64,000 nucleotides of DNA from Thermobispora bispora DSM 43833 (lineage in GTDB: Bacteria; Actinomycetota; Actinomycetes; Streptosporangiales; Streptosporangiaceae): positions 3,348,001 through 3,412,000 of the forward strand of contig NC_014165.1 in NCBI RefSeq assembly GCF_000092645.1, in the 5' to 3' direction. Position numbers and translations under genes: made by a program. Under the pieces are notes generated by a model, which did not search any database, was not told the DNA's origin, and saw only the letters and a list, made by a program, of their open reading frames with translations. Shown piece after piece: positions 6,337 to 63,922 of this stretch; position 1 is the stretch's first letter; every line of letters starts with the position of its first letter.

Positions 6337-6362
6337 GCACGACCGCACCCGGGAGTCCACAG

Positions 6363-8092
<1,730 letters not shown>

Positions 8093-9509: not shown

Positions 9510-11690
9510 ATGGATCTCGATCGGCTGGCCGCCGGCGCGCACCACGACCCGCACTCGATCCTCGGCGCGCACCCCGGGCCGGAGGGCGTCACGATCCGCG
9601 CACTGCGGCCGCTCGCCGAGAAGGTCGAGGCCATCGTGGACGGCACCGCCCACGAGCTGCGGCACGTCGCCCACGGGGTGTTCGAGGTGACCATCCCCGG
9701 GCTGGACAAGATCCCGGACTACCGGCTGCGGATCACCTATCCGGGCGCGCCGCCGTACGAGACGGACGACCCGTACCGGCACCTGCCGACCCTCGGCGAG
9801 TTCGACCTGCACCTCATCCACGAGGGCCGGCATGAGCGGCTGTGGGAGGTGCTCGGCGCCCGGGTCATGCGGCACGAGGACGTCGACGGCACCGCGTTCA
9901 CCGTGTGGGCGCCGAACGCCCGCGGCGTCCGGGTGATCGGCGACTTCAACCACTGGGACGGCACGGCCTGCCCGATGCGCTCGCTCGGCCGGTCGGGGGT
10001 GTGGGAGCTGTTCCTCCCCGGGGTCGGGCCGGGGGCCCGGTACAAGTTCCAGGTCCTCGGCATCGACGGCGTGTGGCGGGAGAAGGCGGACCCGATGGCC
10101 CGCCGGACCGAGGTCCCGCCGGCCACCGCGTCGATCGTGGAGCGGTCCGCGTACGAGTGGCGGGACGCGGAGTGGATGGCCGCCCGCGCCCGGCGGGATC
10201 CGCTCACCGGGCCGATGAGCATCTACGAGGTGCACCTCGGCTCGTGGCGGCCCGGGCTGTCCTACCGGCGGCTCGCGGTCGAGCTGGTCGAGTACGTCAC
10301 CGAGATGGGCTTCACCCACGTGGAGTTCCTGCCGGTGGCCGAGCACCCGTTCGGCGGGTCGTGGGGCTACCAGGTCACCTCGTACTACGCGCCGACCGCC
10401 CGGTTCGGCACCCCCGACGACTTCCGCTACCTGGTGGACGAGCTGCACCGCGCCGGCATCGGGGTGATCCTCGACTGGGTGCCCGCGCACTTCCCCACCG
10501 ACGAGTGGGCGCTCGCCCGGTTCGACGGCACCCCGCTGTACGAGCACGCCGACCCGCGGCGGGGCGAGCACCCGGACTGGGGCACCTACGTCTTCGACTA
10601 CGGCCGGAACGAGGTCCGCAACTTCCTCGTCGCCAACGCGCTCTACTGGCTGAAGGAATTCCACATCGACGGCCTGCGCGTGGACGCCGTCGCCTCCATG
10701 CTCTACCTCGACTACTCGCGGCGCGAGGGCGAGTGGACCCCGAACATCCACGGCGGCCGGGAGAACCTCGAGGCGATCGCCTTCCTGAAGGAGCTGAACA
10801 CGGTCTGCTACCGCGAGGTGCCCGGGATCGTGATGATCGCCGAGGAGTCCACGGCCTGGCCGGGCGTGTCCCGCCCGGTGCACCTGGGCGGGCTCGGGTT
10901 CGGCCTGAAGTGGAACATGGGCTGGATGCACGACACGCTCAAGTACCTGTCGCACGACCCGATCCACCGGCAGTACCACCACCACGAGGTGACCTTCTCC
11001 CTGGTGTACGCGTTCTCGGAGAACTTCGTGCTGCCGCTCTCGCACGACGAGGTCGTGCACATGAAGGGGTCGCTGCTCGCCAAGATGCCCGGGGACGAGT
11101 GGCAGCGCTTCGCCAACCTGCGCGCGCTCCTGGCGTACATGTGGGCGCACCCGGGCAAGCAGCTCCTCTTCATGGGCGGGGAGTTCGGCCAGGGCGCGGA
11201 GTGGTCGGAGGCGCACGGCCTCGACTGGTGGGTGCTCGACTTCGAGTACCACCGGGGCGTGCAGCGCCTGGTGCAGGACCTCAACCGGATCTACCGGGAG
11301 ACGCCGGCGCTGTACACCCGGGACTTCACCCCGGACGGGTTCCGGTGGATCGAGGCGAACGACGCGGCGCGGAACGTGCTGGCCTTCCTGCGCTACGGCT
11401 CGGACGGCTCGGTGCTCGCCTGCGTGGTGAACTTCGCCGGCATCCCGCACGAGGACTACCACCTGGGCCTGCCGGTGGGCGGCCGGTGGGAGGAGATCCT
11501 CAACACCGACTCCTTCCTCTACGCGGGCAGCGGGGTGGGGAACCTCGGCGCGGTCGAGGCGTCCGCCACGCCGTGCCACGGCCTGCCCTACTCGGCCCGG
11601 CTCCGCCTGCCGCCGCTCGGCGCGCTCTGGCTCCGGCCGGCCACGGGGTCCCCGGCGCGCGAGCGGGACGCGGACGGCCGGTCCGGCTGA
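9510..11690 (+). CDS. glgB: 1,4-alpha-glucan branching enzyme
   Basis: This enzyme introduces alpha-1,6 branches into the linear glucan made by GlgE. With the ATG at 9510 it has 726 residues and starts [25 protein letters not shown] lies 7 nt upstream. An earlier GTG at 9474 is also in frame and would add 12 residues but lacks a visible ribosome binding site. The order is an N-terminal CBM48 region (YDxHxxLGAH type, then [20 protein letters not shown]), the GH13_9 barrel with nucleophile D392 ([17 protein letters not shown]), acid/base E445 ([12 protein letters not shown]) and D513 ([15 protein letters not shown]), and a C-terminal beta domain. It is the last gene of the GlgE-pathway operon. 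Confidence 0.95.
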
Positions 11691-11710
11691 GCGGCGGGCC
11701 CGGCTCCGGG

Positions 11711-11820
11711 GCCCGAGCAGCGAGGGCCGGATGAGGTCGCCGGTGTTCATCGCCATCCGGGGTTCCCTGGGCCCATGCAGCGGGGCCGGACGAGGTGGCC
11801 GGTGTTCATCGCCATCGCGG
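11711..11820. repeat. Two imperfect direct repeats, period about 60 bp
   Basis: Copy 1 (from 11711) and copy 2 (from 11771) share GCCGGTGTTCATCGCCAT-type cores and an upstream GCAGCG GGGCCGGA segment, with a one-base gap between copies. They lie directly after the glgB stop. The repeated segments are non-coding in any convincing frame. Function is unknown; they may be decayed duplications of the operon's 3' region. Confidence 0.6.
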
Positions 11821-11885
11821 ACCCCGGGCGCGCGAAGCGGGGGCTCGATGACGCCCGGCCGTTCCACCGCGGCGCCACGATGCCG

Positions 11886-11971
11886 CCCCGCCACCATCCC
11901 TGAGCCGTACAGGCCCCGCCAGCATCCCGGAGGCTCAACAGGCCCGGCCACCATTCCGGGGGCCCAAAACG
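11886..11971. repeat. Three imperfect tandem repeats of 28-29 bp
   Basis: Units start at 11886, 11914 and 11943. Each begins CCC(C/G)GCCA(C/G)CAT and is followed by a CCGG- or CTGAG-containing half. The array ends about 12 bp before the -35 element of the chitinase promoter. It could be a binding array or simple slippage; nothing in the sequence decides this. Confidence 0.55.
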
Positions 11972-11982
11972 GGGCGAACGCA

Positions 11983-12011
11983 TTGACGCGCCACCGCGGC
12001 GGGCTTACCCT
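11983..12011 (+). promoter_or_regulatory. Housekeeping-type promoter of the chitinase gene
   Basis: TTGACG at 11983-11988 and TACCCT at 12006-12011 are separated by exactly 17 bp, a good match to actinobacterial principal-sigma promoters. Transcription would begin near 12017-12019, immediately before the operator palindrome. Confidence 0.75.
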
Positions 12012-12020
12012 GCGGTCAAA

Positions 12021-12043
12021 CTGATAGGAAACTTTCCTATCAG
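12021..12043. promoter_or_regulatory. Perfect operator palindrome in the chitinase leader
   Basis: Arms CTGATAGGAAA and TTTCCTATCAG (11 bp each) flank a single C. The AGGAAA/TTTCCT core resembles the operators reported for ROK-family repressors of chitosan and other sugar genes in actinomycetes (from memory of the family). The site lies just downstream of the predicted transcription start, so a bound repressor would block the polymerase. No dedicated regulator lies beside the chitinase; the ROK gene at 42289-43518 is one candidate, untested. Confidence 0.75.
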
Positions 12044-12073
12044 ATAGAACCGATCCCCTACCTGGAGTGACCG

Positions 12074-13702
12074 TTGCGACGATTGCTGCTCGGGCCCCTG
12101 CTCGCGGGGGCAGCGCTCCTCGCTCCGCTCGCCATCGGGACCGCGACCGCCGCCACCCCGGCGACCGCCACGTACTCCACGGACTCTGACTGGGAGACCG
12201 GCTTCCAGGGCAAGTTCACCATCAAGGCCGGGTCCTCCACCCTGCAGAGCTGGACGCTCGAGTTCGACGTGCCGCCCGGCACGACGATCAGCTCCGCCTG
12301 GGACGCCCGGATGACCAGGAACGGGAACCACTACACGTTCACCAACCCGACCTGGTACGAGCCCCTCGCCCCCGGGGCGTCCACCACCTTCGGCTTCATC
12401 GGCGCGCCCGGTGGCGGCTTCACCCCGCTGAACTGCACGCTCAACGGCCAGCCGTGCTCCGGCGAACCCGGCTCCCCCGGCCCGTCGCCGACCTCCTCCC
12501 CCTCCCCCACCGTCAGCCCGAGCCCGTCCCCGCCGGTCAGCCCCAGCCCGTCGCCGACGGTGACCACGTCCCCCAACCCCGGCGGTGACAAGAAGATCGT
12601 CGGCTACTTCACCGAGTGGGGCGTCTACGGGCGCCAGTACTTCGTCAAGAACCTCGTCACCAGCGGCACCGCCTCCAAGATCGACTACATCAACTACGCC
12701 TTCGGCAACGTCACCAACGGCCAGTGCGCCATCGGCGACTCGTACGCGGCGTACGACATGGCCTACACCGCGGAGAACAGCGTGGACGGCAAGGCGGACA
12801 CCTGGGACACCGGCGCGCTCCGCGGCAACTTCAACCAGCTCCGCAAGCTCAAGGCCATGTACCCGCACATCAAGGTCATCTGGTCGTTCGGCGGCTGGAC
12901 CTGGTCGAGCGGCTTCGCCGAGGCGGCCCGCAACCCCGAGGCCTTCGCCGAGTCCTGCTACCGGCTGCTGAAGGACCCGCGCTGGGCCGACGTGTTCGAC
13001 GGGATCGACATCGACTGGGAGTACCCGAACGCCTGCGGGCTGAGCTGCGACACCAGCGGGCCGGACGCCTTCCGGAGGCTCATGGCCGCGCTCCGCGCCA
13101 AGTTCGGCCCCGACTTCCTGGTGACCGCGGCGATCAGCGGTGACGGCACCTCGGGCGGCAAGCTCGACGCCGCGGACTACGCCGGCGCGGCGCAGTACGT
13201 CGACTGGTACCTCGTCATGACGTACGACTACTTCGGCGCCTGGGCGGCGACCGGGCCGACCGCCCCGCACTCGCCGCTCACCTCCTACAGCGGGATCCCC
13301 ACGGCCGGCTTCTACGCGGACGCGGCCATCCAGAAGCTGAAGAGCAAGGGCATCCCCGCGAACAAGCTCCTGCTCGGCATCGGCTTCTACGGCCGCGGCT
13401 GGACCGGGGTCACCCAGAGCGCGCCCGGCGGCACCGCCACCGGCCCGGCACCGGGCACCTACGAGCAGGGCGTCGAGGACTACAAGGTGCTCAAGACGAG
13501 CTGCCCGGCCACCGGGACCATCGCCGGCACGGCGTACGCCCACTGCGGCAACAACTGGTGGAGCTACGACACCCCGGCGACGATCGCGGGGAAGATGGAC
13601 TACGTCAAGAACCAGGGCCTCGGCGGCGCGTTCATCTGGGAGTTCAGCGGTGACACCGCCAACGGCGAGCTGGCGGCCGCCGTGGCCGGCAACCTCCGGT
13701 AG
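12074..13702 (+). CDS. Secreted chitinase: CBM2 plus GH18
   Basis: The 542-residue protein should hydrolyse chitin outside the cell. Translation starts at a TTG (12074) with GGAG 6 nt upstream. Residues 1 to about 28 form a signal peptide (RR, then a Leu/Ala-rich core, ending TATAA). A family 2 carbohydrate-binding module follows (about 30-132; DWETGFQGKFTI, a PTWYEPLAPG segment, Cys near both ends), then a Pro/Ser/Thr linker (about 135-170), then the GH18 domain starting KKIVGYFTEWGVYGR. The catalytic DxxDxDxE motif is FDGIDIDWEYP with acid E316. The gene stands alone behind its own promoter, operator and terminators. Confidence 0.95.
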   Translation: MRRLLLGPLLAGAALLAPLAIGTATAATPATATYSTDSDWETGFQGKFTIKAGSSTLQSWTLEFDVPPGTTISSAWDARMTRNGNHYTFTNPTWYEPLAPGASTTFGFIGAPGGGFTPLNCTLNGQPCSGEPGSPGPSPTSSPSPTVSPSPSPPVSPSPSPTVTTSPNPGGDKKIVGYFTEWGVYGRQYFVKNLVTSGTASKIDYINYAFGNVTNGQCAIGDSYAAYDMAYTAENSVDGKADTWDTGALRGNFNQLRKLKAMYPHIKVIWSFGGWTWSSGFAEAARNPEAFAESCYRLLKDPRWADVFDGIDIDWEYPNACGLSCDTSGPDAFRRLMAALRAKFGPDFLVTAAISGDGTSGGKLDAADYAGAAQYVDWYLVMTYDYFGAWAATGPTAPHSPLTSYSGIPTAGFYADAAIQKLKSKGIPANKLLLGIGFYGRGWTGVTQSAPGGTATGPAPGTYEQGVEDYKVLKTSCPATGTIAGTAYAHCGNNWWSYDTPATIAGKMDYVKNQGLGGAFIWEFSGDTANGELAAAVAGNLR

Positions 13703-54320: not shown

Positions 54321-55280
54321 TCAGAGCGTGAAGACGATTTTCCCGAAGATGTCGCCCTGGAGCATCGCGGCGAAGCCCTCCTCGGCGCGGGTGAGCGGCA
54401 GCACCCGGTCGATCACCGGACGGGCGCCGGTCTGCTCGAGGAACACGGCGAGCCGGGCGAGCTGGTCCCGGGTCCCCATGGTCGACCCGACGATCGACTT
54501 CTGCAGGAAGAAGACCTGCGCGAGGTGCGTGGGGGCGACGTGCCCGGTCGTGGCCCCGGCGATCACGATGCGCCCGCCGGGCTTCAGCGCGTTGATCGAG
54601 TGGCTCCAGGTGGCGGCGCCCACGGTCTCCATCACCGCGTCCACCCGCTCCGGCAGCCGCGCCCCGGGCTCGAACGCGCGGTCGGCGCCCAGCTCCAGGG
54701 CCCGGGCCCGCTTCTCCTCGGACCGGCTGGTCACCCAGATCCGGTAGCCGCCGGCCCGGCCGAGCACGATCAGCGCGGTCGACACACCGCCGCCCGCGCC
54801 CTGGACGAGCACGGTGGACCCGGGCTCCACCCCGGCCTTCTCGAACAGCATCCGGTACGCGGTCAGCCAGGCCGTGGGGAGGCAGGCGGCCTCCTCGAAG
54901 GAGAGGGCGGCCGGCTTCGGCACCAGGTTCCGCTTCGGCACGACGACCCGCTCGGCGAACGTGCCGTCGTACACCTCCGACAGCAGCGACCGCTTCGGGT
55001 CGAGGGTCTCATCCCCCTCGCCCGAGCCGATCACCGCGTGGACGATGACCTCGTTGCCCTCCTCGTCCAGGCCGGCCGCGTCACAGCCGAGCACGATCGG
55101 CAGCCGGTCCTGGCTGATGCCCACCCCGCGCAGGGTCCACAGATCGTGGTGGTTGAGCGAGGCGGCCTTGACGGTGACGGTCGTCCACCCCTCCGGGACC
55201 TCCGGCTCGGGGCGCTCCCCCAGCGTCAGCCCTTCCAGCGGGTTGTCGGGGTTGGTCTTCGTAGCGGTTACGGCGAACAT
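54321..55280 (-). CDS. Zinc-binding dehydrogenase / quinone oxidoreductase-like protein
   Basis: The 319-residue MDR protein starts at ATG 55278-55280. It has a GroES-like N-terminus with AASLNHHDLWTLRG, and the nucleotide motif VLVQGAGGGVSTALIVLGR; GGRIVIAGATTGHVAP follows. The zinc-binding cysteines of alcohol dehydrogenases are missing, so it is a quinone-reductase-type NADPH oxidoreductase. The upstream neighbour on the same strand is the protease inhibitor. Confidence 0.88.
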   Translation of the reverse strand: MFAVTATKTNPDNPLEGLTLGERPEPEVPEGWTTVTVKAASLNHHDLWTLRGVGISQDRLPIVLGCDAAGLDEEGNEVIVHAVIGSGEGDETLDPKRSLLSEVYDGTFAERVVVPKRNLVPKPAALSFEEAACLPTAWLTAYRMLFEKAGVEPGSTVLVQGAGGGVSTALIVLGRAGGYRIWVTSRSEEKRARALELGADRAFEPGARLPERVDAVMETVGAATWSHSINALKPGGRIVIAGATTGHVAPTHLAQVFFLQKSIVGSTMGTRDQLARLAVFLEQTGARPVIDRVLPLTRAEEGFAAMLQGDIFGKIVFTL

Positions 55281-55433
55281 GGCCGAACCCTACCCGGGGG
55301 CCGTACGCCCATCACGATCGGGATCCGCGATCACGGGACGGCCCCCTGCCGTGTCCGGGCGCCGGCGCGCCCGTCGATCACGGGAACTCCCCCATGCCGC
55401 GTCCGGGCCCGGCGGGAGCCGTGACGCGAAAGG

Positions 55434-55458
55434 GCCCGGTGGCGTGGCACCACCGGGC
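55434..55458 (-). terminator. Terminator of the protease inhibitor gene
   Basis: GCCCGGTGG and CCACCGGGC form a 9-bp stem with a 7-nt loop. Read on the minus strand it is followed by CCTTTCGCG. It lies about 45 bp after the inhibitor stop. Confidence 0.6.
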
Positions 55459-55502
55459 ACCGCGTTCCCGCCGTCTTTACGCGGGTCATACGACCGCCGT
55501 GG

Positions 55503-55946
55503 TCAGATCTTGAACAGGTCCCCCTCGACGGCCTCCATCTGGCACCGGTTGCCGAAGGTGCGCCGGAGCCAGAACTGCCGGCCGTCCCAGATGCCGCTGG
55601 CGGTGACCGTGACCGGGTCGTACAGCATCGAGCAGGCCACGTCGGCGCGTGGCTGGAGCGCGGTGATGTCGCCGCCCACCCGCTCCAGGGCCGCGCAGAC
55701 CGTGTCGGCGTGCGGGTGCGAACCGCTGACCGACCGGCAGTCGACGTCCACGGTCTTGGTGGGATTCCCGGACCCGGTGCCGGGCTCGATGCTGATGGTC
55801 ACCGCGCGCGTCGGCGCGTTCGCCGGGTCGGCGGCCTGGGCCGACGGTTGCGCGGACGACTGCGGCGGTGCGGGCTCCGCCATGGCGGGCGTGGCGAGAC
55901 CGGCCCCCAGGGCGGCACCGGCTAGGAGAACAAGGAGTGACTTCAT
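55503..55946 (-). CDS. SSI-family secreted subtilisin inhibitor
   Basis: The 147-residue protein has a signal peptide (MKSLLVLLAGAALGAGLATPAMA, cut near residue 23), a short Pro/Ala/Ser region and the SSI domain. Four cysteines are present as in the family (the DCRS, VCAALE, ACSMLYDP and NRCQME segments). The reactive-site loop ACSMLYDPV places Met at P1 and Leu at P1', as in SSI itself (Met-Val). Such inhibitors block subtilisins and some trypsin-like proteases. It is divergent from a trypsin-fold protease gene, which may be its target or partner. Confidence 0.92.
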   Translation of the reverse strand: MKSLLVLLAGAALGAGLATPAMAEPAPPQSSAQPSAQAADPANAPTRAVTISIEPGTGSGNPTKTVDVDCRSVSGSHPHADTVCAALERVGGDITALQPRADVACSMLYDPVTVTASGIWDGRQFWLRRTFGNRCQMEAVEGDLFKI

Positions 55947-56155
55947 GCGCTTCCCCCCGTTTCGCTGGCAGCAGCTTCACCGCCAGGGGCCCCCGCCGCA
56001 AGCATCCACTCCGCAGGCTTAGTTAGCTCTGACGTCACGGAGACTTCTTTGGTTCCCCCCGTTCCATAACAACAAGGACACAACACTAGGCCAGGTCAGT
56101 ACCCGTCTGAAAAAATTGCCCCTTAGTTTCCAGATCTCCAGCAGGGAAGGTGGCC

Positions 56156-57262
56156 ATGTTCGGGCGACTCGCGCTCCGGAAGGGCGGCATCGCCGCCGCC
56201 GTGTGCGCGGTCGCCGTGCTCGCCCATCCGGGGACGCCGGCCGTGGCCTCGCCGGCGTCCCAGCAGCAGAGCGCGAGCCGCGCCGCGGCCACCAGGATCC
56301 AGGCGTACCCGCTCGCCCCGACCGCGGCCGATAGGCAGCGGGTCGCCGCGTACTGGAGCCCGGAACGGCTGAAGCGGGCGAGCAGCTACGAGCCGCGGAC
56401 CAAGCCGTCCTCGTCCACCCGGGCGATGAGCTCATCGGCGGAGCTCGCGCCCGCGCGGGCCGCGGTCACCGCCGCCGGCCCGGCCGCCGCGGCCGCGGCG
56501 AGCGCCCCGCCCATGGTGGGCAAGGTCTTCTTCAAGGTCGGGGACAAGGAGTACTGGTGCTCCGCCTCGGTGGTGCACTCGCAGCACCGCAACCTCGTGG
56601 CGACCGCGGGGCACTGCGCCTTCGCCCTCAACCAGAACAAGCCGGTAGAGAACTGGATCTTCATCCCGTCGTACCGCGACGGCAAGGCCGACGCGGGGAT
56701 CTTCGTCGGCCACACCCTCTACATGCACGAGGACTTCTCCGGCAAGGGCGACTTCGACCGTGACTACGCGTTCGTCACGGTGCACCGCGGCTTCGCCTGG
56801 CAGCCGTACACCGTCGGCGGCAAGGTCCAGTACCGGATGGTGGACGTGGGCCGGCTCGAGGACAAGGTGGGGGCGTTCCGCTTCGCCGCCAACCTGTCGC
56901 TCGGCCGGAAGGTCACCGTCTTCGGCTACCCGGCCGGGGCGCACCCGGACGGCAGCCGGCCGTACTCGGGCCAGTCGGTGGTGTCCTGCGCGGGCACGAC
57001 CGAGCGCAAGACCGTCAAGGCCCCGACGTGGCAGCTCGAACGGGGCGTCCGGCTCCCCCACTGCGGCTTCACCTCGGGCGCGAGCGGCGGCCCCTGGGTG
57101 GTGGGCTACAACGCGGTCACCCGGACCGGCTACCTGGTCGGGATCACCAGCCTCACCTGGAACCTCAACGGCGGCGGCCGGCTGAACGCGATCTCGACCC
57201 CCTACTTCAACGCGGCCGCGCGCCTGGTCTACCTCCGGGCCGCCCGCCAGGCCACCGGCTGA
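56156..57262 (+). CDS. Secreted trypsin-like serine protease (active-site intact)
   Basis: The 368-residue protein starts at ATG 56156 with GGGAAGG upstream; GTG 56150 is in frame but too near the ribosome binding site. A signal peptide (about 1-31) and a long pro-like region (about 32-120) precede the S1 domain. The triad is H153 (LVATAGHC), D203 (FDRDYAFVTV) and S310 (SGASGGPWVVGY). Cysteines pair as WCSASVVHS/GHC and SC...LPHC around the active site. It shares domain plan and many motifs (AVHSQ, RNLVATAGHC, RDYAFV, VGRL, TPY/SPYF at the end) with the two proteins at 59958 and 61244, which lack the serine. Confidence 0.9.
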   Translation: MFGRLALRKGGIAAAVCAVAVLAHPGTPAVASPASQQQSASRAAATRIQAYPLAPTAADRQRVAAYWSPERLKRASSYEPRTKPSSSTRAMSSSAELAPARAAVTAAGPAAAAAASAPPMVGKVFFKVGDKEYWCSASVVHSQHRNLVATAGHCAFALNQNKPVENWIFIPSYRDGKADAGIFVGHTLYMHEDFSGKGDFDRDYAFVTVHRGFAWQPYTVGGKVQYRMVDVGRLEDKVGAFRFAANLSLGRKVTVFGYPAGAHPDGSRPYSGQSVVSCAGTTERKTVKAPTWQLERGVRLPHCGFTSGASGGPWVVGYNAVTRTGYLVGITSLTWNLNGGGRLNAISTPYFNAAARLVYLRAARQATG

Positions 57263-57353
57263 TCCGGGCCGCCACTCCCCCTCCCCGGCCTTCCCACGCC
57301 CCATCGCCGCCGTGGTGGCCGGATGCCCCCGCCGGCGCAGGCCGGATAATCCG
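57263..57353. other. Gap between the protease and the ABC-F promoter
   Basis: GC-rich sequence without a gene; with the leader described next it makes up the 348-bp space before the ABC-F gene. Confidence 0.4.
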
Positions 57354-57382
57354 TTGCCCCGGACATGCGCGGTGGGTAAGGT
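57354..57382 (+). promoter_or_regulatory. Promoter of the ABC-F gene
   Basis: TTGCCC (57354-57359) and TAAGGT (57377-57382) are separated by exactly 17 bp. The transcript would begin near 57388-57390 and carry a leader of about 220 nt. Confidence 0.7.
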
Positions 57383-57418
57383 CGGCGGCGAACCGTAGTC
57401 GCCGAAGGGAGCACCCGA

Positions 57419-57504
57419 GTGGAGAGCTGAGGTCCGGCACCGCGACCGCCGCCGCGACGCATGCCGTCGGCAGCGGCGTCGCCTGAGACCTCGGCATGGC
57501 TCTC
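57419..57504 (+). promoter_or_regulatory. Attenuator-like leader with a three-codon upstream frame
   Basis: GTG GAG AGC TGA at 57419-57430 is a minimal reading frame with AAGGGAG about 9 nt before it. It overlaps the left side of a long-range stem: GAGAGC (57422-57427) with GCTCTC (57499-57504), and GAGGTC (57429-57434) with GACCTC (57487-57492). Nested inside is GCGACGC (57454-57460) with GCGTCGC (57476-57482). A ribosome stalled on the short frame would disrupt the outer stem. ABC-F resistance genes are often controlled in this way; the link here is inferred. Confidence 0.55.
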
Positions 57505-57610
57505 TCGCGCGCTTCCGTTTCCCGGGTGCCCCGGCATTCCGTCCGTGGCGCGTTCGCGGTGTCTCCGCCGTTTCCGCCCGTCATCCCAGGAATGCCGAGG
57601 AGGCCCCACC

Positions 57611-59260
57611 GTGTCTTCTTCGTCTTCTTCGTCGTTCTCCATCGTCTGCACGGAGCTGTCGTTCTCCTGGCCGGACGGCACGCCGGTGTTCGATCGGCTC
57701 GACGTCGCGTTCGGGCCCGGCCGTACCGGGCTGATCGGGCCGAACGGATCCGGCAAGTCGACGCTGCTCCGGTTGATCGCCGGTGAGCTGCGGCCGGTGT
57801 CGGGCACGGTCCGCGTGGCGGGTGACGCCGGGTATCTGCCGCAGCACCTGCCGCTCGACGTCGGCCGGACCGTCGCCGAGCTGCTCGGCATCGCGGAGGT
57901 GCGCCGGGCGCTGCGCGACCTGGAGCGCGGGGGGTTGTCCGAGGCCGAGCTCGCCGAGCGGTACGCGGTGATCGGCGACGACTGGGACGCCGAGGAGCGG
58001 GCGCGCGCCGAGCTCGACCGGCTCGGCCTGGGGCACGTCGGGCTCGACCGCCCGCTGGGCACGCTCTCGGGCGGTGAGGCCGTCATGGTGGGCCTCGCCG
58101 CGCAGTTCCTGCGGCGGCCGCGGGTGCTGCTGCTCGACGAGCCCACCAACAACCTCGACCTCGACGCCCGGCACCGGCTCTACGACGCGGTCGCGGCGTG
58201 GCGCGGCGTCATGGTCCTGGTGAGCCACGACCGGGCGCTGCTCGACCGCGTCGACCAGATCGCCGACCTGTCCCGCGGCCGGATCCGGATGTTCGGCGGC
58301 AACCTGTCCGCCTACGAGGAGGCGCTCGCCGCCGAGCGGGAGGCCGCCGAGCGGGAGCTGCGCAATGCCGGGGCCGAGGTACGGCGGCAGCGGCGCGAGC
58401 TCATCGAGGCCGAGACGCGGATCGCCCGGCGGTCCCGGTACGGGGCGAAGATGTACGCCAACAAGCGCGAGCCGAAGATCGTCATGAACGCGCGCAAGCG
58501 CGAGGCCCAGGTCTCGGCGAGCAGGCTGCGCGCGCTGCACCAGGACCGGCTCGCGGCCGCGCAGCGGCGGCTCGCCGAGGCCGCGGAGGCGGCGCGCGAG
58601 GATCCGGCGATCCGCATCGAGCTGCCCCGCACCGAGGTCCCGGCCGGCCGCACCGTCGCGGTGCTGGAGGAGGTGACGACCCCGGCCGGGCATCCGCCGG
58701 TGCGGCTCACCCTCCGCGGCCCGGAGCGGATCGCGCTGCTCGGCCCGAACGGGGCGGGGAAGACCACCCTGCTGCGCACGATCACCGGTGAGCTCGCCCC
58801 GGCGGGTGGGACGGTGCGGGTCACGGTCGACGGCGTGGGCTACCTGCCCCAGCGGCTCGACGTGCTCGACGGGTCGCGCAGCGTGCTGGAGAACGTGCGC
58901 GCCGCCGCGCCCGGCGCCTCGGTGAACCGGATCCGCGCGGAGCTCGCCCGCTTCCTGTTCCGCGGGGACCGGGCCGAGCTGCCCGCCTCGGCCCTGTCCG
59001 GCGGGGAACGCCTGCGCGCGGTGCTCGCCACGGTCCTGCTCGCCGAGCCGCCGCCGCGGTTGCTGCTGCTCGACGAGCCGACCAACAACCTCGACATGCC
59101 CGCGGTGGACCGGCTGGTCGAGGCCCTCGCCGCCTATCGCGGCGCGCTCGTCGTCGCCTCCCACGACCTGCCGTTCCTCGCCTCGCTCGGCATCACCCGC
59201 TGGCTGCGCCTGACGCGGGAGGAGGGCCTTGCGGAGATCGATCCGCCGGACCCGTGGTGA
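57611..59260 (+). CDS. ABC-F family ATPase (ribosome-protection type)
   Basis: The 549-residue protein starts at GTG 57611 with AGGAGG 8 nt upstream. There are two nucleotide-binding domains and no membrane segment. Domain 1 has GPNGSGKST, LSGGE and DEPTNNLDLDA; domain 2 has GPNGAGKTT, LSGGERLRAV and DEPTNNLDMPA. The linker (about 235-335) is a long charged helical arm with RRSRYGAKMYANKREPKIVM, as in antibiotic-resistance ABC-F proteins acting on the ribosomal exit site. A specific drug cannot be named. The promoter and leader suggest inducible expression. Confidence 0.9.
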   Translation: MSSSSSSSFSIVCTELSFSWPDGTPVFDRLDVAFGPGRTGLIGPNGSGKSTLLRLIAGELRPVSGTVRVAGDAGYLPQHLPLDVGRTVAELLGIAEVRRALRDLERGGLSEAELAERYAVIGDDWDAEERARAELDRLGLGHVGLDRPLGTLSGGEAVMVGLAAQFLRRPRVLLLDEPTNNLDLDARHRLYDAVAAWRGVMVLVSHDRALLDRVDQIADLSRGRIRMFGGNLSAYEEALAAEREAAERELRNAGAEVRRQRRELIEAETRIARRSRYGAKMYANKREPKIVMNARKREAQVSASRLRALHQDRLAAAQRRLAEAAEAAREDPAIRIELPRTEVPAGRTVAVLEEVTTPAGHPPVRLTLRGPERIALLGPNGAGKTTLLRTITGELAPAGGTVRVTVDGVGYLPQRLDVLDGSRSVLENVRAAAPGASVNRIRAELARFLFRGDRAELPASALSGGERLRAVLATVLLAEPPPRLLLLDEPTNNLDMPAVDRLVEALAAYRGALVVASHDLPFLASLGITRWLRLTREEGLAEIDPPDPW

Positions 59261-59957
59261 CGGTGCCCCGTCCCGCGCGGCGGCACGGCCGCGTGGGTGG
59301 CGTGATCCTCATCGCGGTGCCATGCCCGGATCCCGCACGGCCGGGCAGCGCCGCCTCGAGCGCAGCACGTGCCGGCGCCGCACCGCCGGCGGCGTCGCCT
59401 GCGGGCCGTGAAGCGCTCGTCCGGTGACGCCGTCCTTGGAAGTGATTCCGTACGCGCGCCGGACCGGGAGCGGCCGAGGTCCGGCGCGCATGCGCGCCCT
59501 CGCCCGGGACGGTGCCGAACCAGAGCCCGGATGGGCGCGTCACACCCTGACGAGCGGGCGTTCACGGGTTCACGTCCCCGCCGCCGGCCCGCCGGAAAGG
59601 GCGCTCAAGCATTTGTCCAGATTGGAGCGGTTTAGACGAACAACTCGGCCAATCGGTGCCATCCAGACTATGTGATTTTGCTCACATCCATCGCCGCCGC
59701 CAAGACCCGCCGCAGCCGGCGCCCGCCGGCGCCCGCATCCACCGGAACCGCCGTTCATCAGCGGATTCGCCGCCTTCACTCCACCTAGGAATGGCTCAGG
59801 GGTGAATGTCACGGATGGATAACGCCGCCGGGCCGCCGACGGCGGGGCCGGGAAAGCCGAGCGCCCACGGTCGCCGACGGTTAGGTTCTTTGACATCTCT
59901 TTACTGGCGCTTGAGGCGAAGAAGACCGTCTCACGACAGACCGAGGAGAGAGGTTCT
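59261..59957. other. Long gene-free region upstream of the first pseudoprotease
   Basis: About 700 bp contains no gene I can support. It holds a perfect CRP-type site (59670-59687). It also has an inverted pair, TTCACTCC (59775) and GGGGTGAA (59799), around TAGGAA. A TTGACA hexamer lies at 59890-59895 without a good -10 partner. The 11-mer AGGTTCTTTGA occurs at 59883 and again at 59951, where it overlaps the ribosome binding site and start. Confidence 0.5.
59670..59687. promoter_or_regulatory. Perfect CRP/FNR-family binding site
   Basis: TGTGA, six bases (TTTTGC), TCACA, flanked by A and T, so 6-bp arms are fully symmetric. This matches the TGTGAn6TCACA consensus of CRP proteins, including the mycobacterial one. 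It lies 270 bp upstream of the pseudoprotease gene in an AT-richer patch. Confidence 0.7.
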
Positions 59958-61043
59958 TTGAAGCGCACCATCGCCGCCGGCGGCGCCATCGCCGCCGTCA
60001 GCCTGCTGGCCGCCGGCCTCGCCACCCCCGCCGAGGCGGCCAGGAGGACCGTTGCCGCTGACAACCTCGCCGCGACCAACTACGCGGCGTGGCAGGTCCT
60101 GAAGTACTGGTGGAACGAGCGGGCGTCGCGGTTCCAGGCCGCCACGCCGTACAACGTGGAGACGTCCGTCCCGTCCCGGCACATCCGCACCGGCGGCGGG
60201 CTCGCCGACAGCAAGCCCGGCCTGGTCTCGCCCACCGGCGGCGCCGGGAAGGCGACGGGCAAGGCCAAGAACGTCAACCTGCCGCGCACCGTCGGCAAGG
60301 TGTTCTTCACCGGCGCCGACGGCAAGCCCCACTGGTGCACGGCGACCGCGGTGCACTCGCAGTACCGCAACCTCGTCGCCACGGCCGGCCACTGCGTCTA
60401 CGACACGCGGAGCAACCGGCCGACCCTCCGCAACTGGGTGTTCGTGCCCGGGTACTACAAGGGCAAGGCCCCCTGGGGCATCTACGTCGGCAAGACCGCG
60501 TACACCCACTACGACTTCGACGTCTACCACGACGGCGACCGCGACTACGCGTTCGTGACCGTCTACAACGGCGTCACCGTGACCGGCTGGGACCGCCGGA
60601 AGCGGCTGCCGAAGATCAAGGACGTCGGCCGCCTGGGCGACAACGTCGGTGGCCAGGGTCTCGCCTACAACCAGAAGATCGGCACGTACCACTACGTCTT
60701 CGGCTACCCGAGCGGGTCCCACCCCGACGGCAACCGGGCGTTCACCGGTCTGACCCTCAAGTGGTCGTACGGCAAGACCTTCCGCGTCCAGGCCCCGGCC
60801 ATCAAGGGTGAGGAGCTGATCGGCATCCGGTCCTCCTTCACCGGCCAGGGTGCCATCGGCTCGGCCTGGCTGCTCAACTACTCCAGCGCCCGCCGGCTCG
60901 GCTACCTGAACGGTGTGACCATCGGCGTCTCCGACACCGACGGCAACCAGCGGTACGACACCAGCATCTCGCCGTACTTCGACGGCGAGACCTACCAGGT
61001 CTACAAGACCGCCGCCAGCCGGTGGTCCGGGCGGATCGCCTGA
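59958..61043 (+). CDS. Secreted trypsin-fold protein lacking the catalytic serine (pseudoprotease 1)
   Basis: The 361-residue protein starts at TTG 59958 with AGGAG and GAGAGG upstream. A signal peptide (about 1-27, ending PAEA) is followed by a pro-like region and the S1-like domain. H145 (LVATAGHC) and D196 (DGDRDYAFVTV) are kept. Where the active paralogue has G-A-S-G-G-P-W it reads G-A-I-G-S-A-W, so the nucleophile is Ile300. It has only two cysteines, WCTATAVHS and GHC; the second pair around the serine loop is gone. The fold should persist but ordinary proteolysis should not. The gene has a CRP-type site upstream and a strong terminator after it. Confidence 0.85.
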   Translation: MKRTIAAGGAIAAVSLLAAGLATPAEAARRTVAADNLAATNYAAWQVLKYWWNERASRFQAATPYNVETSVPSRHIRTGGGLADSKPGLVSPTGGAGKATGKAKNVNLPRTVGKVFFTGADGKPHWCTATAVHSQYRNLVATAGHCVYDTRSNRPTLRNWVFVPGYYKGKAPWGIYVGKTAYTHYDFDVYHDGDRDYAFVTVYNGVTVTGWDRRKRLPKIKDVGRLGDNVGGQGLAYNQKIGTYHYVFGYPSGSHPDGNRAFTGLTLKWSYGKTFRVQAPAIKGEELIGIRSSFTGQGAIGSAWLLNYSSARRLGYLNGVTIGVSDTDGNQRYDTSISPYFDGETYQVYKTAASRWSGRIA

Positions 61044-61083
61044 TCCCCGGCGGGACACCGAGCTGACGGTCTTCTCCTCCGGC

Positions 61084-61110
61084 AGGGCCCGGCCGAGCCG
61101 GGCCCTCTTC
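61084..61110 (+). terminator. Rho-independent terminator
   Basis: AGGGCCCGGC (61084-61093) and GCCGGGCCCT (61097-61106) form a perfect 10-bp stem around CGA, followed by CTTCCTATT. It ends the first pseudoprotease transcript. Confidence 0.85.
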
Positions 61111-61243
61111 CTATTCCGTGCTCTTCCGTCTCGTTCCGAGATCGTTTCCGGCGTGACGCTCCGGCGCTGTATGTTCCGTTGCGATCCCCTTCACTGACGC
61201 ATGGGGCGCAGCAGCGTTCCACGTACAGCGCGAGGAGTCTCCG

Positions 61244-62467
61244 TTGCGACGCATCCCGATATGGGGTCTCTCATGGGGTGCGGCGGCACTGATCGGGCTG
61301 ATCGGGTCGCTGGTGCCGGCGCCCGCACTGGCCTACGACATCACCGTGAGTGCCCCCCTCACCTCGGAGGCGCAGGCCGCCTCCGTGCTCACCTACTGGC
61401 TGCGAGACGGCGGCCGCGCCCTCGAGGCGGCGACGCCGTACCGTCCGGACATCGCCATAACGCCCCGGCGGGTCCTCCTGGGCGGCCCGCATCCCGACGG
61501 CCGGCCGGGTTCGGTGTCCCCGGGCACCGCACAGCGCGTGGCCCCGGCGTCCGCCAAGCACGTCGGCCCGCCGAGGACGCTCGGCAAGGCGTTCTTCGTC
61601 GGCGCGGACGGCAGGCCGCACTGGTGCTCGGCGACCGCCGTGCAGTCCACGCATCGCAACCTCGTCGCAACGGCGGGACACTGTGTATTCGACCCGGCAT
61701 CGGGCAAGCCGCACCGCCGGTGGATCTTCATCCCCGGCCACCAGCGCGGCAGGTTCCCGTACGGGATCTTCCTCGGCAAGCAGGCCTTCACCCACCGCGA
61801 CTTCGCCAAGTACCGGGACGCGGACCGGGATTACGCCTTCGTCGCCGTGTACGACGGGCTCGCGCCTCGCGGCGAGGTCGACCTGGCGAACCGGGCCCGG
61901 TACGCCGCCTTCACCGGCGGCATCGCCTACCGGGTGAAGACCGGCGGGACCACCCGGTACGTGGGCGTCACGCTCACCCGCACCGGACGGCTCGGTGACC
62001 TGGTCGGTGGGCAGGGGATCGCCTACAACCTGCTGCCCGGGCGATCGGTCCGCCTCGCCGGCCATCCGGCGCCCGCCCCGGGCAAGACCCGGGCCGGTGG
62101 CGGAGACCAGACCGCCGGCGCGCCGGCCCTCTGGTCCGGCCGGACGTTCAAGGCGGAAGACGCGGCCATCAAGGCGGAGCTCCTGCTGGGCGTCCGCTCG
62201 ACGGCCCCGTCGCTGGTGGACGGCGCTCTCTGGCTCACCGGCTACCGGAAGAGCACGGGCCTCGGCTACCTCAACGGCATCACCATCGCCACCGCGGCGC
62301 GGGACGGCGCCGGCGTGTCGCCGTACTTCGACGGGGAGCTGTTCACCGTCTACACGGCCGCCCGGGCGGCCCGGGCGGAGCCGATCTCGTTCGGGCGCAC
62401 GGCCAAGGCCGGGGAGCGCGGCACCGGCACCGCGGCGGGACGCGGGGGCGGCTCCGGATCGCGATGA
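61244..62467 (+). CDS. Secreted trypsin-fold protein lacking the catalytic serine (pseudoprotease 2)
   Basis: The 407-residue protein starts at TTG 61244 with GAGGAG about 7 nt upstream. A signal peptide (about 1-30, ending PALA) precedes the domain. H146 (LVATAGHC) and D196 (DADRDYAFVAV) remain, but the serine loop reads L-V-D-G-A-L-W, so Asp326 replaces the nucleophile and the preceding glycine is also lost. Only two cysteines are present. An insertion of about 40 residues (RYVGVTLTRTG and a Gly/Ala-rich stretch) and a Gly-rich tail distinguish it from the first pseudoprotease. It shares RTVGK/RTLGKAFFVGADG, PHWC and SPYFDGE with that protein. Confidence 0.85.
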   Translation: MRRIPIWGLSWGAAALIGLIGSLVPAPALAYDITVSAPLTSEAQAASVLTYWLRDGGRALEAATPYRPDIAITPRRVLLGGPHPDGRPGSVSPGTAQRVAPASAKHVGPPRTLGKAFFVGADGRPHWCSATAVQSTHRNLVATAGHCVFDPASGKPHRRWIFIPGHQRGRFPYGIFLGKQAFTHRDFAKYRDADRDYAFVAVYDGLAPRGEVDLANRARYAAFTGGIAYRVKTGGTTRYVGVTLTRTGRLGDLVGGQGIAYNLLPGRSVRLAGHPAPAPGKTRAGGGDQTAGAPALWSGRTFKAEDAAIKAELLLGVRSTAPSLVDGALWLTGYRKSTGLGYLNGITIATAARDGAGVSPYFDGELFTVYTAARAARAEPISFGRTAKAGERGTGTAAGRGGGSGSR

Positions 62468-62518
62468 CGTCGCCCGCGGCGATCCGCGTGGCGGGGCCGA
62501 TCCGGCGGACCGGCGGAT

Positions 62519-63922
62519 TCAGACCATGACCGTAGCGCGCCGCCCGGCGTGGTCGCCGCTGTGGCCGCCGGCGTACTCCCCCACCCGCTCGAGCAGCTCG
62601 GCGACGCACGGCTCCGTGGCGTGCGGCGCGAACCGCCGCCGCATGTCGCGCACGTACGACCGGGTGCGCGTGGACCGGATGCCCTTCGCCAGGTCGAGCG
62701 CCGCGGACGCGGCGGAGCACGCCTCCTCCAGCTCCCCCTCCTGGAGCAGGGCGGAGGCGAGCAGGGAGAGGTTGAACATCTTGCCCCGGACGAACCGCCC
62801 GTCCATGATCAGCGAGCGCCGGGCGTGGGCCACCGCCTGCGCGCCGTCGCCGAGGTCCCGCAGGCAGTGCGCGACCTTGGCCGAGAGGTAGGCCTCGTCG
62901 AAGTAGCGGATCCAGGCGGGCTCGTTCTCCGGGGAGCGCCGGTCGAAGGCGCGCTCGGCCTCGTGCAGCGACACGGCGCAGGACGACCTGTCCCCGAGGA
63001 GCGCGAGCGCGTGCGCCTCCAGCACCCGGGCCTCGGCGAGCAGGGAGTACACCCCCGAGCGCCGGGCCGCCACCGCGGCCGCGCGCGCCAGCTCCAGCCC
63101 GTGCTTGGGGTGCCCGATGTAGATGGCCTGGTGGCTGAGGCCGGCCAGGATCTCGCCCCCGAGCCCGTGGTCGCCCGCGCTCTTGGCGAGCCCGAGCGCG
63201 TGGAGCAGGTACCGCTGGGCGAGGCCGTGCTGCTCGAGGTCGTAGGCCATCCAGCCGGCGAGCCGGGTGAGCTCGGCCGCGGCCGAGGCGAGCTCGCGCC
63301 CGGTCGCCTCACCGTACGAGCCCTCGCGCAGCAGCGGGGTCACGGCGGTGTGCAGGTAGCGCACCACCGGCCCCCGGATGTACCCGCCCCCGTACCGGTT
63401 GTCCAGCTCGCTGAACGAGCGCGTTACCTCGCGGATCGCGGCCACGTCGGCGACCCCGACCCGGCGCGGGCCCGAGGCGGAGATCCGCTCGCCGGCCGGC
63501 TCGGCGAGCCACCGGATGATCCCGGCCGAACCGGCGCCGATCACGAAGGTGGAGTCGAGCAGGAACCGGCGTCGCTCGACGTCGGCCTTCCACAGTGCGG
63601 TCACGCTTGCCACACCCTCCTCCCACGTCGTGGGGAACTCCTGTCCCAGGTCGAGAGGGATGGCTCCACGCGATGGGCAGGTGTCCGCAGCGGCCACCCG
63701 CGGCCCGAGCCGCGCGAGGGAGACCGTCACCGGCCCGGCCGGCTCCGGCTCACGCGGTCCTGGGATCCGGTACGGCATGGCGCCGGACCGGGGTCTCCAC
63801 GGCGGGATCTTCGGGAGCCGACGGGCCGAGCCGAGGATGCTCAGCAGGCGGGCCAGGCCCTTCCGGGCCCGCCCGGGCTCGGCGAGGCGCCGCGCACGCG
63901 GCAGCTCGGGGGGACGTCGCAT
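62519..63922 (-). CDS. TPR-like regulatory protein without a visible helix-turn-helix
   Basis: The frame gives 467 residues from ATG 63920-63922 with GAAGAG a few bases upstream; ATG 63776-63778 (419 residues) and GTG 63728-63730 are alternatives. The Arg/Pro-rich first 48 residues do not resemble a domain. From about residue 100 it matches the C-terminal part of actinobacterial XRE regulators: GVASVTALWKADVERRRFLLDS, then VTRSFSELDNRYGGGYIRGPVVRYL and AAAELTRLAGWMAYDLEQHGLAQRYLLHAL, followed by TPR-like helical repeats. The usual N-terminal helix-turn-helix is absent. It may act through protein contacts. It converges on the second pseudoprotease. Confidence 0.75.
   Translation of the reverse strand: MRRPPELPRARRLAEPGRARKGLARLLSILGSARRLPKIPPWRPRSGAMPYRIPGPREPEPAGPVTVSLARLGPRVAAADTCPSRGAIPLDLGQEFPTTWEEGVASVTALWKADVERRRFLLDSTFVIGAGSAGIIRWLAEPAGERISASGPRRVGVADVAAIREVTRSFSELDNRYGGGYIRGPVVRYLHTAVTPLLREGSYGEATGRELASAAAELTRLAGWMAYDLEQHGLAQRYLLHALGLAKSAGDHGLGGEILAGLSHQAIYIGHPKHGLELARAAAVAARRSGVYSLLAEARVLEAHALALLGDRSSCAVSLHEAERAFDRRSPENEPAWIRYFDEAYLSAKVAHCLRDLGDGAQAVAHARRSLIMDGRFVRGKMFNLSLLASALLQEGELEEACSAASAALDLAKGIRSTRTRSYVRDMRRRFAPHATEPCVAELLERVGEYAGGHSGDHAGRRATVMV

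Follow-up and report, generated by a model that had tools for sequence, protein, structure and literature searches.

The locus described here raises the question of why genes for trypsin-like proteases are kept after their catalytic serine has been replaced. In Thermobispora bispora DSM 43833, three paralogues lie on the forward strand of a 64,000-nucleotide stretch of DNA (the window, meaning that stretch at its full length), which forms part of one contig of 4,189,976 bases. They are an intact, probably secreted serine protease (56156-57262), copy 2 (59958-61043) and copy 3 (61244-62467). The original prediction, made from the letters of the DNA, was that copies 2 and 3 were under selection for a non-catalytic role such as binding, decoy or scaffold. 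In the present analysis the two copies were judged, with a probability of about 0.78, to be maintained, non-catalytic proteins that act by binding.

Active-site residues and fold of copies 2 and 3

The intact gene has an ATG start and encodes a trypsin-fold protein (Pfam Trypsin, E=5e-8) with His153, Asp203, Ser310 within the motif GASGGPW (codon at 57083-57085, forward strand) and Ser332, which is Ser214 in chymotrypsin numbering. Its cysteine pairs are 135/154 and 278/303. Copy 2 (TTG start) is 40% identical to the intact copy and carries His145, Asp196 and, at position 195, Ile300 within GAIGSAW (ATC codon, 60855-60857, forward strand), with Ile322 at position 214 (60921-60923, forward strand). 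Copy 3 (TTG start) is 33% identical to the intact copy and carries His146, Asp196, Asp326 at position 195 within LVDGALW (GAC codon, 62219-62221, forward strand) and Ile348 at position 214. The only cysteines present are 127/146 in copy 2 and 128/147 in copy 3, the second pair being absent from both. The nucleophile residues and their coordinates, the retained His and Asp and the missing cysteine pair had all been read correctly in the original prediction. Its further claim, that only the nucleophile side had been lost, did not hold: Ser214, overlooked at that stage, is gone from both copies too, and in the Leu/Ile class to which copy 2 belongs His57 and Asp102 have also drifted, with 8 and 9 changes on the tree, respectively.

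When copies 2 and 3 were realigned in search of a substitute serine for position 195, no alternative register was found. The invariant G196 and the Trp that follows fix its position, so no other serine fits; position 194 of copy 2 is Ala, not Ser. In a profile alignment, the GSSGGPW motif of two solved proteases, Anisep of Arthrobacter nicotinovorans (PDB 3wy8) and the alkaline serine protease AL20 (PDB 3cp7), shared columns with the corresponding site of both copies. The AlphaFold (AF2) models retained the two-barrel fold, with a mean predicted local distance difference test (pLDDT) score of 83.1 for copy 2 and 83.6 for copy 3 and a predicted template modelling (pTM) score of 0.84 for each. 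In a Foldseek comparison of the models with the PDB, Anisep and AL20 matched best; TM-scores over the target were 0.83-0.87 (for 3wy8, 0.86 with copy 2 and 0.83 with copy 3).

Of the features expected of an active S1/PA-clan protease, His57, Asp102 and the two-barrel trypsin fold were therefore present in both copies, whereas Ser195 and Ser214 were not. Both copies show what characterizes a serine protease homologue (SPH), namely homology to proteases with a catalytic residue gone, together with selective retention. The substitutions are not due to chance, since the same ones are found again and again in dozens of species, in a pattern that follows the clades.

Selection on the copies without the nucleophile serine

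Selection was estimated with the codon model MG+F3X4 on a grid of fixed omega values, one omega per set. The codon model was used because Nei-Gojobori pairwise dN/dS values (class medians 0.27-0.56) were distorted by extreme GC. The best omega was 0.15 both for the clade of copy 2 and for copy 3 with its relatives, which answers the dN/dS check that had been suggested with the original prediction. Two other Leu sets gave 0.2-0.25, and the range was 0.1-0.2 both in two Asp sets and in two sets of the active orthologue. In every set omega=1 was rejected (2 delta lnL 314-765). Although approximate, these values exclude neutral decay of the clades. The median column entropy was 0.46 in the Leu/Ile class versus 1.22 in the active class, the scaffold being more uniform in the former, and His57 and Asp102 were among the more variable columns of the Leu/Ile class.

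Distribution of the family and classes of nucleophile loss

A sample of 250 genomes from the order included 215 with some relative; many genomes gave about 8-16 matches each. Among 118 genomes sampled from the class, only four had strong matches (E <= 1e-30), all belonging to the window's own family, the Streptosporangiaceae. An alignment was made of 346 Streptosporangiaceae proteins from 116 loci in which all three triad columns were covered. Position 195 was occupied by Ser in 197 proteins, Asp in 73, Asn in 3, Leu in 46, Ile in 7 and Val in 1; the remainder had Ala (8), Thr (6) or Gly (4), and one was unaligned. Every orthologue of the intact copy (69/69) had Ser195.

Copies of this kind recur across the Streptosporangiaceae, often in tandem, and the losses fell into two contrasting classes. 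Among the copies with Leu, Ile or Val at position 195, His57, Asp102 or both had also been lost in 31 of 54, compared with 0 of the 76 copies with Asp or Asn (Fisher p about 1e-15, uncorrected for relatedness). On the tree, the main Asp class showed no change at His57 or Asp102, against about 23 predicted from the rate in the Leu/Ile class. Ser214 was retained in 66 of the 70 members of the main Asp class, which also kept G193 and G196, whereas 48 of 53 Leu/Ile copies had Ile at position 214. In the Leu/Ile copies, G193 and G196 were kept throughout and residues 214-217 were replaced. As read from these alignments, the catalytic network has been given up in the hydrophobic class, and in the main Asp class almost all of it is held fixed, residue 195 being the exception.

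Copy 2 falls within the hydrophobic class; a protein from genome G205, with 76% identity, is its closest relative. Copy 3 lies outside the main Asp class, in a small divergent clade (Shimodaira-Hasegawa-like approximate likelihood ratio test, SH-aLRT, 99) whose members have D, S, A, G or V at position 195 and usually Ile at position 214. Whether the Ile and Asp are stable across species, as had been asked at the outset, therefore has two answers: the site of copy 2 is stably hydrophobic and not specifically Ile, which occurs in only 7 of the 53 members of its class, and the site of copy 3 is not stable. A second tree grouped most of the Leu/Ile copies (SH-aLRT 91), with one long-branch Ser member inside the group, and indicated at least one separate later loss (L074). 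Reversals from Leu to Ser, obtained by parsimony on the FastTree topology, were distrusted because the branches there are short.

At a distance of about 300 kb, the T. bispora genome encodes two further pseudoproteases. Each has Leu195 and, as an instance of the drift in the class of copy 2, Asn102 (Asp102Asn). The genome also has one distant intact relative (L008).

Several other variants of the site were recorded. The Asp195 class, of which L092 6142-7368 and L098 8053-9699 are examples, has an Asp-His-Asp site, and most of its members retain Ser214. In three relatives (L089, L097 and L115) the site reads Asn-Gly, a motif that readily deamidates to Asp. Genes resembling copy 3 occur at L042, L046, L047, L049, L050, L052, L056 and L074. 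In Microbispora, such genes retain Ser195, but with Ala193, Ile214 and no second cysteine pair, and their products may be inactive despite a triad that looks complete. All six Sphaerisporangium copies at L065, L067, L068, L069, L071 and L072 have Thr at the nucleophile position (GATGGPF/W) and keep His57, Asp102, Ser214 and both cysteine pairs; the Thr is possibly a working nucleophile. At L077 (6109-7302), Ser195 is kept while His57 has become Gln and Asp102 Ser, the sole case of this order of loss seen.

The hypervariable interdomain insert

The linker between the two barrels, directly after the strand bearing Asp102, is the site of a hypervariable insert. Measured from Asp102 to the GRL motif, the linker had 20-37 residues in the active orthologue and up to about 230 in the paralogues. 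The corresponding loop is at 61859-61978 (forward strand, about 40 residues) in copy 3 and at 60573-60620 (forward strand) in copy 2. Pairs of Leu/Ile copies from the same locus were compared with boundaries taken from alignment columns. Their median identity was 86% in the flanks versus 23% in the insert, and the insert had diverged 5.6 times as much as the flanks; the corresponding ratio for the short loop, in active orthologues from different genomes, was 2.1. Among the five tandem copies of G205, mean identity was 91% in one flank and 87% in the other, against 32% for the insert; for the four tandem copies of G096 the values were 95% and 91% versus 34%.

A further example was found in T. 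bispora itself (L117, C1:3703000-3721000), where two inverted pseudoprotease paralogues lie at 6358-7491 (+) and 11454-13052 (-) of that locus. Their DNA identity was 92-94% in both flanks, while the insert had about 30 bases in one and about 500 in the other. Judged on the DNA, the pair apparently differs by a cassette. The sharp boundaries of the insert suggest either that cassettes have been exchanged or that the flanks have undergone gene conversion. The insert was also considered as a hallmark of pseudoproteases, but this was rejected, as it occurs in Ser-bearing paralogues as well.

Some arrays lacked Ser195 altogether, namely those of G009 (8/8 genes), G096 (4/4) and G205 (5/5), in which position 195 was Ile, Leu or Val and position 214 was always Ile. 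The G009 array (L123/L124, G009:C5:58000-82000) packs eight pseudoprotease frames, each 507-652 residues long, into about 20 kb; seven of them share a strand, and all have Ile/Leu195 and Ile214. Most of the frames contain an insert of 140-244 residues, and one insert is rich in His, Asp and Gly and in Ser and Pro.

Proposed function and alternative explanations

Copies 2 and 3 would have descended by duplication from an active secreted protease encoded beside its likely inhibitor, a protein of the SSI (subtilisin inhibitor-like) family. The old catalytic cleft, hydrophobic in copy 2's class (Leu/Ile195, Ile214), would have stopped processing substrate, and the barrels would serve as a rigid extracellular scaffold for binding. 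In many paralogues the variable insert may provide a changing recognition surface. Since the genes often lie with the active protease and its inhibitor, the likeliest targets would belong to that extracellular system as well and could be substrate proteins, the protease or ligands on the cell surface.

A more specific version of the binding hypothesis takes the neighbouring intact protease, or its pro-form, as the partner. The pseudoproteases would then influence how it is activated, how stable it is or what it cleaves, much as inactive serine protease homologues do in insect cascades. The arrangement of the genes favours such a partnership, since further family members lay downstream of the intact gene in 64 of 67 core loci, with at least one non-Ser copy in 48, and the models of both copies retained the N-terminal pro-domain helix. 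In T. bispora, however, copy 2 is not next to the protease, as an ABC-F gene and about 700 bases lie between them, and the two further pseudoproteases are some 300 kb from the locus; the variable inserts, moreover, suggest many targets and not one. The partnership was accordingly regarded as possible but doubtful.

The position of the inhibitor gene bears on a second alternative. In the window, a secreted SSI-family protein (55503-55946, reverse strand; Pfam PF00720, E=1e-20) is encoded divergently from the intact protease and is the only SSI match in the T. bispora genome. Of the 67 core loci, 33 had an SSI-family gene next to the intact protease and divergent from it, and in 14 others the two were one protease gene apart (47/67 in total); in 19 loci, mostly from Nonomuraea, none was found near it. 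The conserved adjacent SSI gene that would be expected of an SSI-regulated protease locus is thus present. This association, together with the G193 and G196 kept in all Leu/Ile copies, would suit dead copies that act as decoys, soaking up SSI and so releasing the active protease. Such a role is improbable, because the replacements at position 195 are mostly bulky (Leu, Ile) or charged (Asp) and seldom Ala or Gly. Judging by known structures of proteases with their inhibitors, these side chains would occupy the site of the P1 carbonyl, where a canonical inhibitor loop would be expected to clash, and residues 214-217 have been replaced as well. SSI was also near-universal in the order (241/250 genomes, including those without paralogue arrays), so it is its adjacency that is informative and not its presence, and most Nonomuraea clusters have Asp copies yet no recognizable adjacent SSI. 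The decoy is therefore a part of the original prediction that fared badly; the purifying selection and the modelled fold support selection for a non-catalytic role, with which binding or a scaffold fits.

That the copies are functionless duplicates, decaying and kept only briefly, is less probable again. The varied site among the relatives of copy 3 and its long branch could be taken that way, but the best omega was well below 1 in each clade tested, across genera, the frames are open without internal stops, the signal peptides are kept and entire arrays have been retained. Least probable is that the Asp195 class is catalytic by other chemistry at Asp195-His57-Asp102-Ser214 (metal binding, acid-base hydrolysis or an Asp nucleophile), which could account for the unchanged His57 and Asp102 and the retained Ser214, G193 and G196 of that class, but the same conservation is explained structurally, and more simply, by a buried Asp-His-Asp ion pair, we know of no trypsin-fold enzyme with an Asp nucleophile, and the argument stops short of copy 3, which is outside the main Asp class, has Ile214 and lacks the second cysteine pair.

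The preferred explanation, that copies 2 and 3 are maintained for binding, has points against it as well. For these two copies we infer the absence of proteolysis, the secretion and binding as the mode of action. The omegas are approximate, as they come from a single-omega model, quick trees and sequences of extreme GC, and the automatic omega fit failed in three sets (the free likelihood equalled that of omega=1), which is why the fixed-omega grid was adopted. Part of the flank similarity between tandem copies may reflect gene conversion and not constraint. The loop of copy 2 is itself short, at about 16 residues, so the argument from the insert is taken from its relatives, and copy 3 is a long branch (1.17).

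A wider interpretation is offered tentatively. In the Streptosporangiaceae the dead trypsin fold might serve as an extracellular display scaffold, the near-identical tandem pseudoproteases, the exchangeable hypervariable cassettes and the live protease of the same family kept beside its inhibitor together making up a diversified secreted recognition system. Pseudoproteases have been much studied in animals and hardly in bacteria. The present family offers two contrasting routes of loss, one to Asp195 with the rest of the site frozen and one to Leu/Ile195 with the rest free to drift. As the family spans many lineages and the live orthologue encoded in the gene cluster provides an internal control, what selection keeps once catalysis has gone becomes testable. 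If the variable insert is indeed the working part, the family would be a natural protein display scaffold.

Other features of the locus

All three paralogues have a signal peptide-like N-terminus ending in AxA, as had been predicted. Purine-rich, Shine-Dalgarno-like stretches were present upstream of all three, but with poorly defined spacing to the start. The terminator noted earlier was recovered as a GC-rich hairpin of 10 pairs 3' of copy 2 (61084-61106, forward strand), which is a consensus match only. Between the intact protease and copy 2 lies the gene for an ABC-F type ATPase (57461-59260, forward strand), with a probable GTG start near 57611; in the window it breaks up what in many relatives is an unbroken protease array. 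An Rfam search of 55000-63000 and a sigma-70 promoter scan gave no match, and an NCBIfam search assigned no family.

Comparison with known systems

A literature search, with subscription journals mostly beyond its reach, returned no description of this pseudoprotease family or of the arrays and insert found in it. As a category, serine protease homologues are already known from bacteria, and animal ones have regulatory roles. By both sequence and fold, the nearest solved relatives are Anisep and AL20. These resemble the intact copy, with which their second cysteine pair and GSSGGPW motif align; they differ from copies 2 and 3 in keeping the nucleophile serine, are 22-27% identical and lack the long interdomain insert.

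In insects, clip-domain serine protease homologues such as SPCLIP1 are inactive, secreted regulatory partners with a trypsin fold (PMC3764210). They share with copies 2 and 3 the trypsin fold, together with the secretion and inactivity predicted for the two copies, and differ in their clip domain and in belonging to an animal immune cascade. Within bacterial protease families, missing catalytic residues or non-proteolytic roles have been described for the pseudo-orthocaspases (PMC6426788) and for the rhomboid YqgP as an adaptor (PMC7231995). The folds of these proteins are unrelated to those of copies 2 and 3, and they are not secreted trypsin-like proteins.

The closest category is that of the prokaryotic SPHs, of which a 2008 survey listed 42 among 966, from 91 genomes (PMC2605481). 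Like copies 2 and 3, these are bacterial relatives of serine proteases without the catalytic residues, and the 42 may include members of the present family. What sets the family apart from the surveyed proteins is the clade-structured loss of the nucleophile, the tandem arrays beside SSI, the two classes of replacement and the hypervariable insert.
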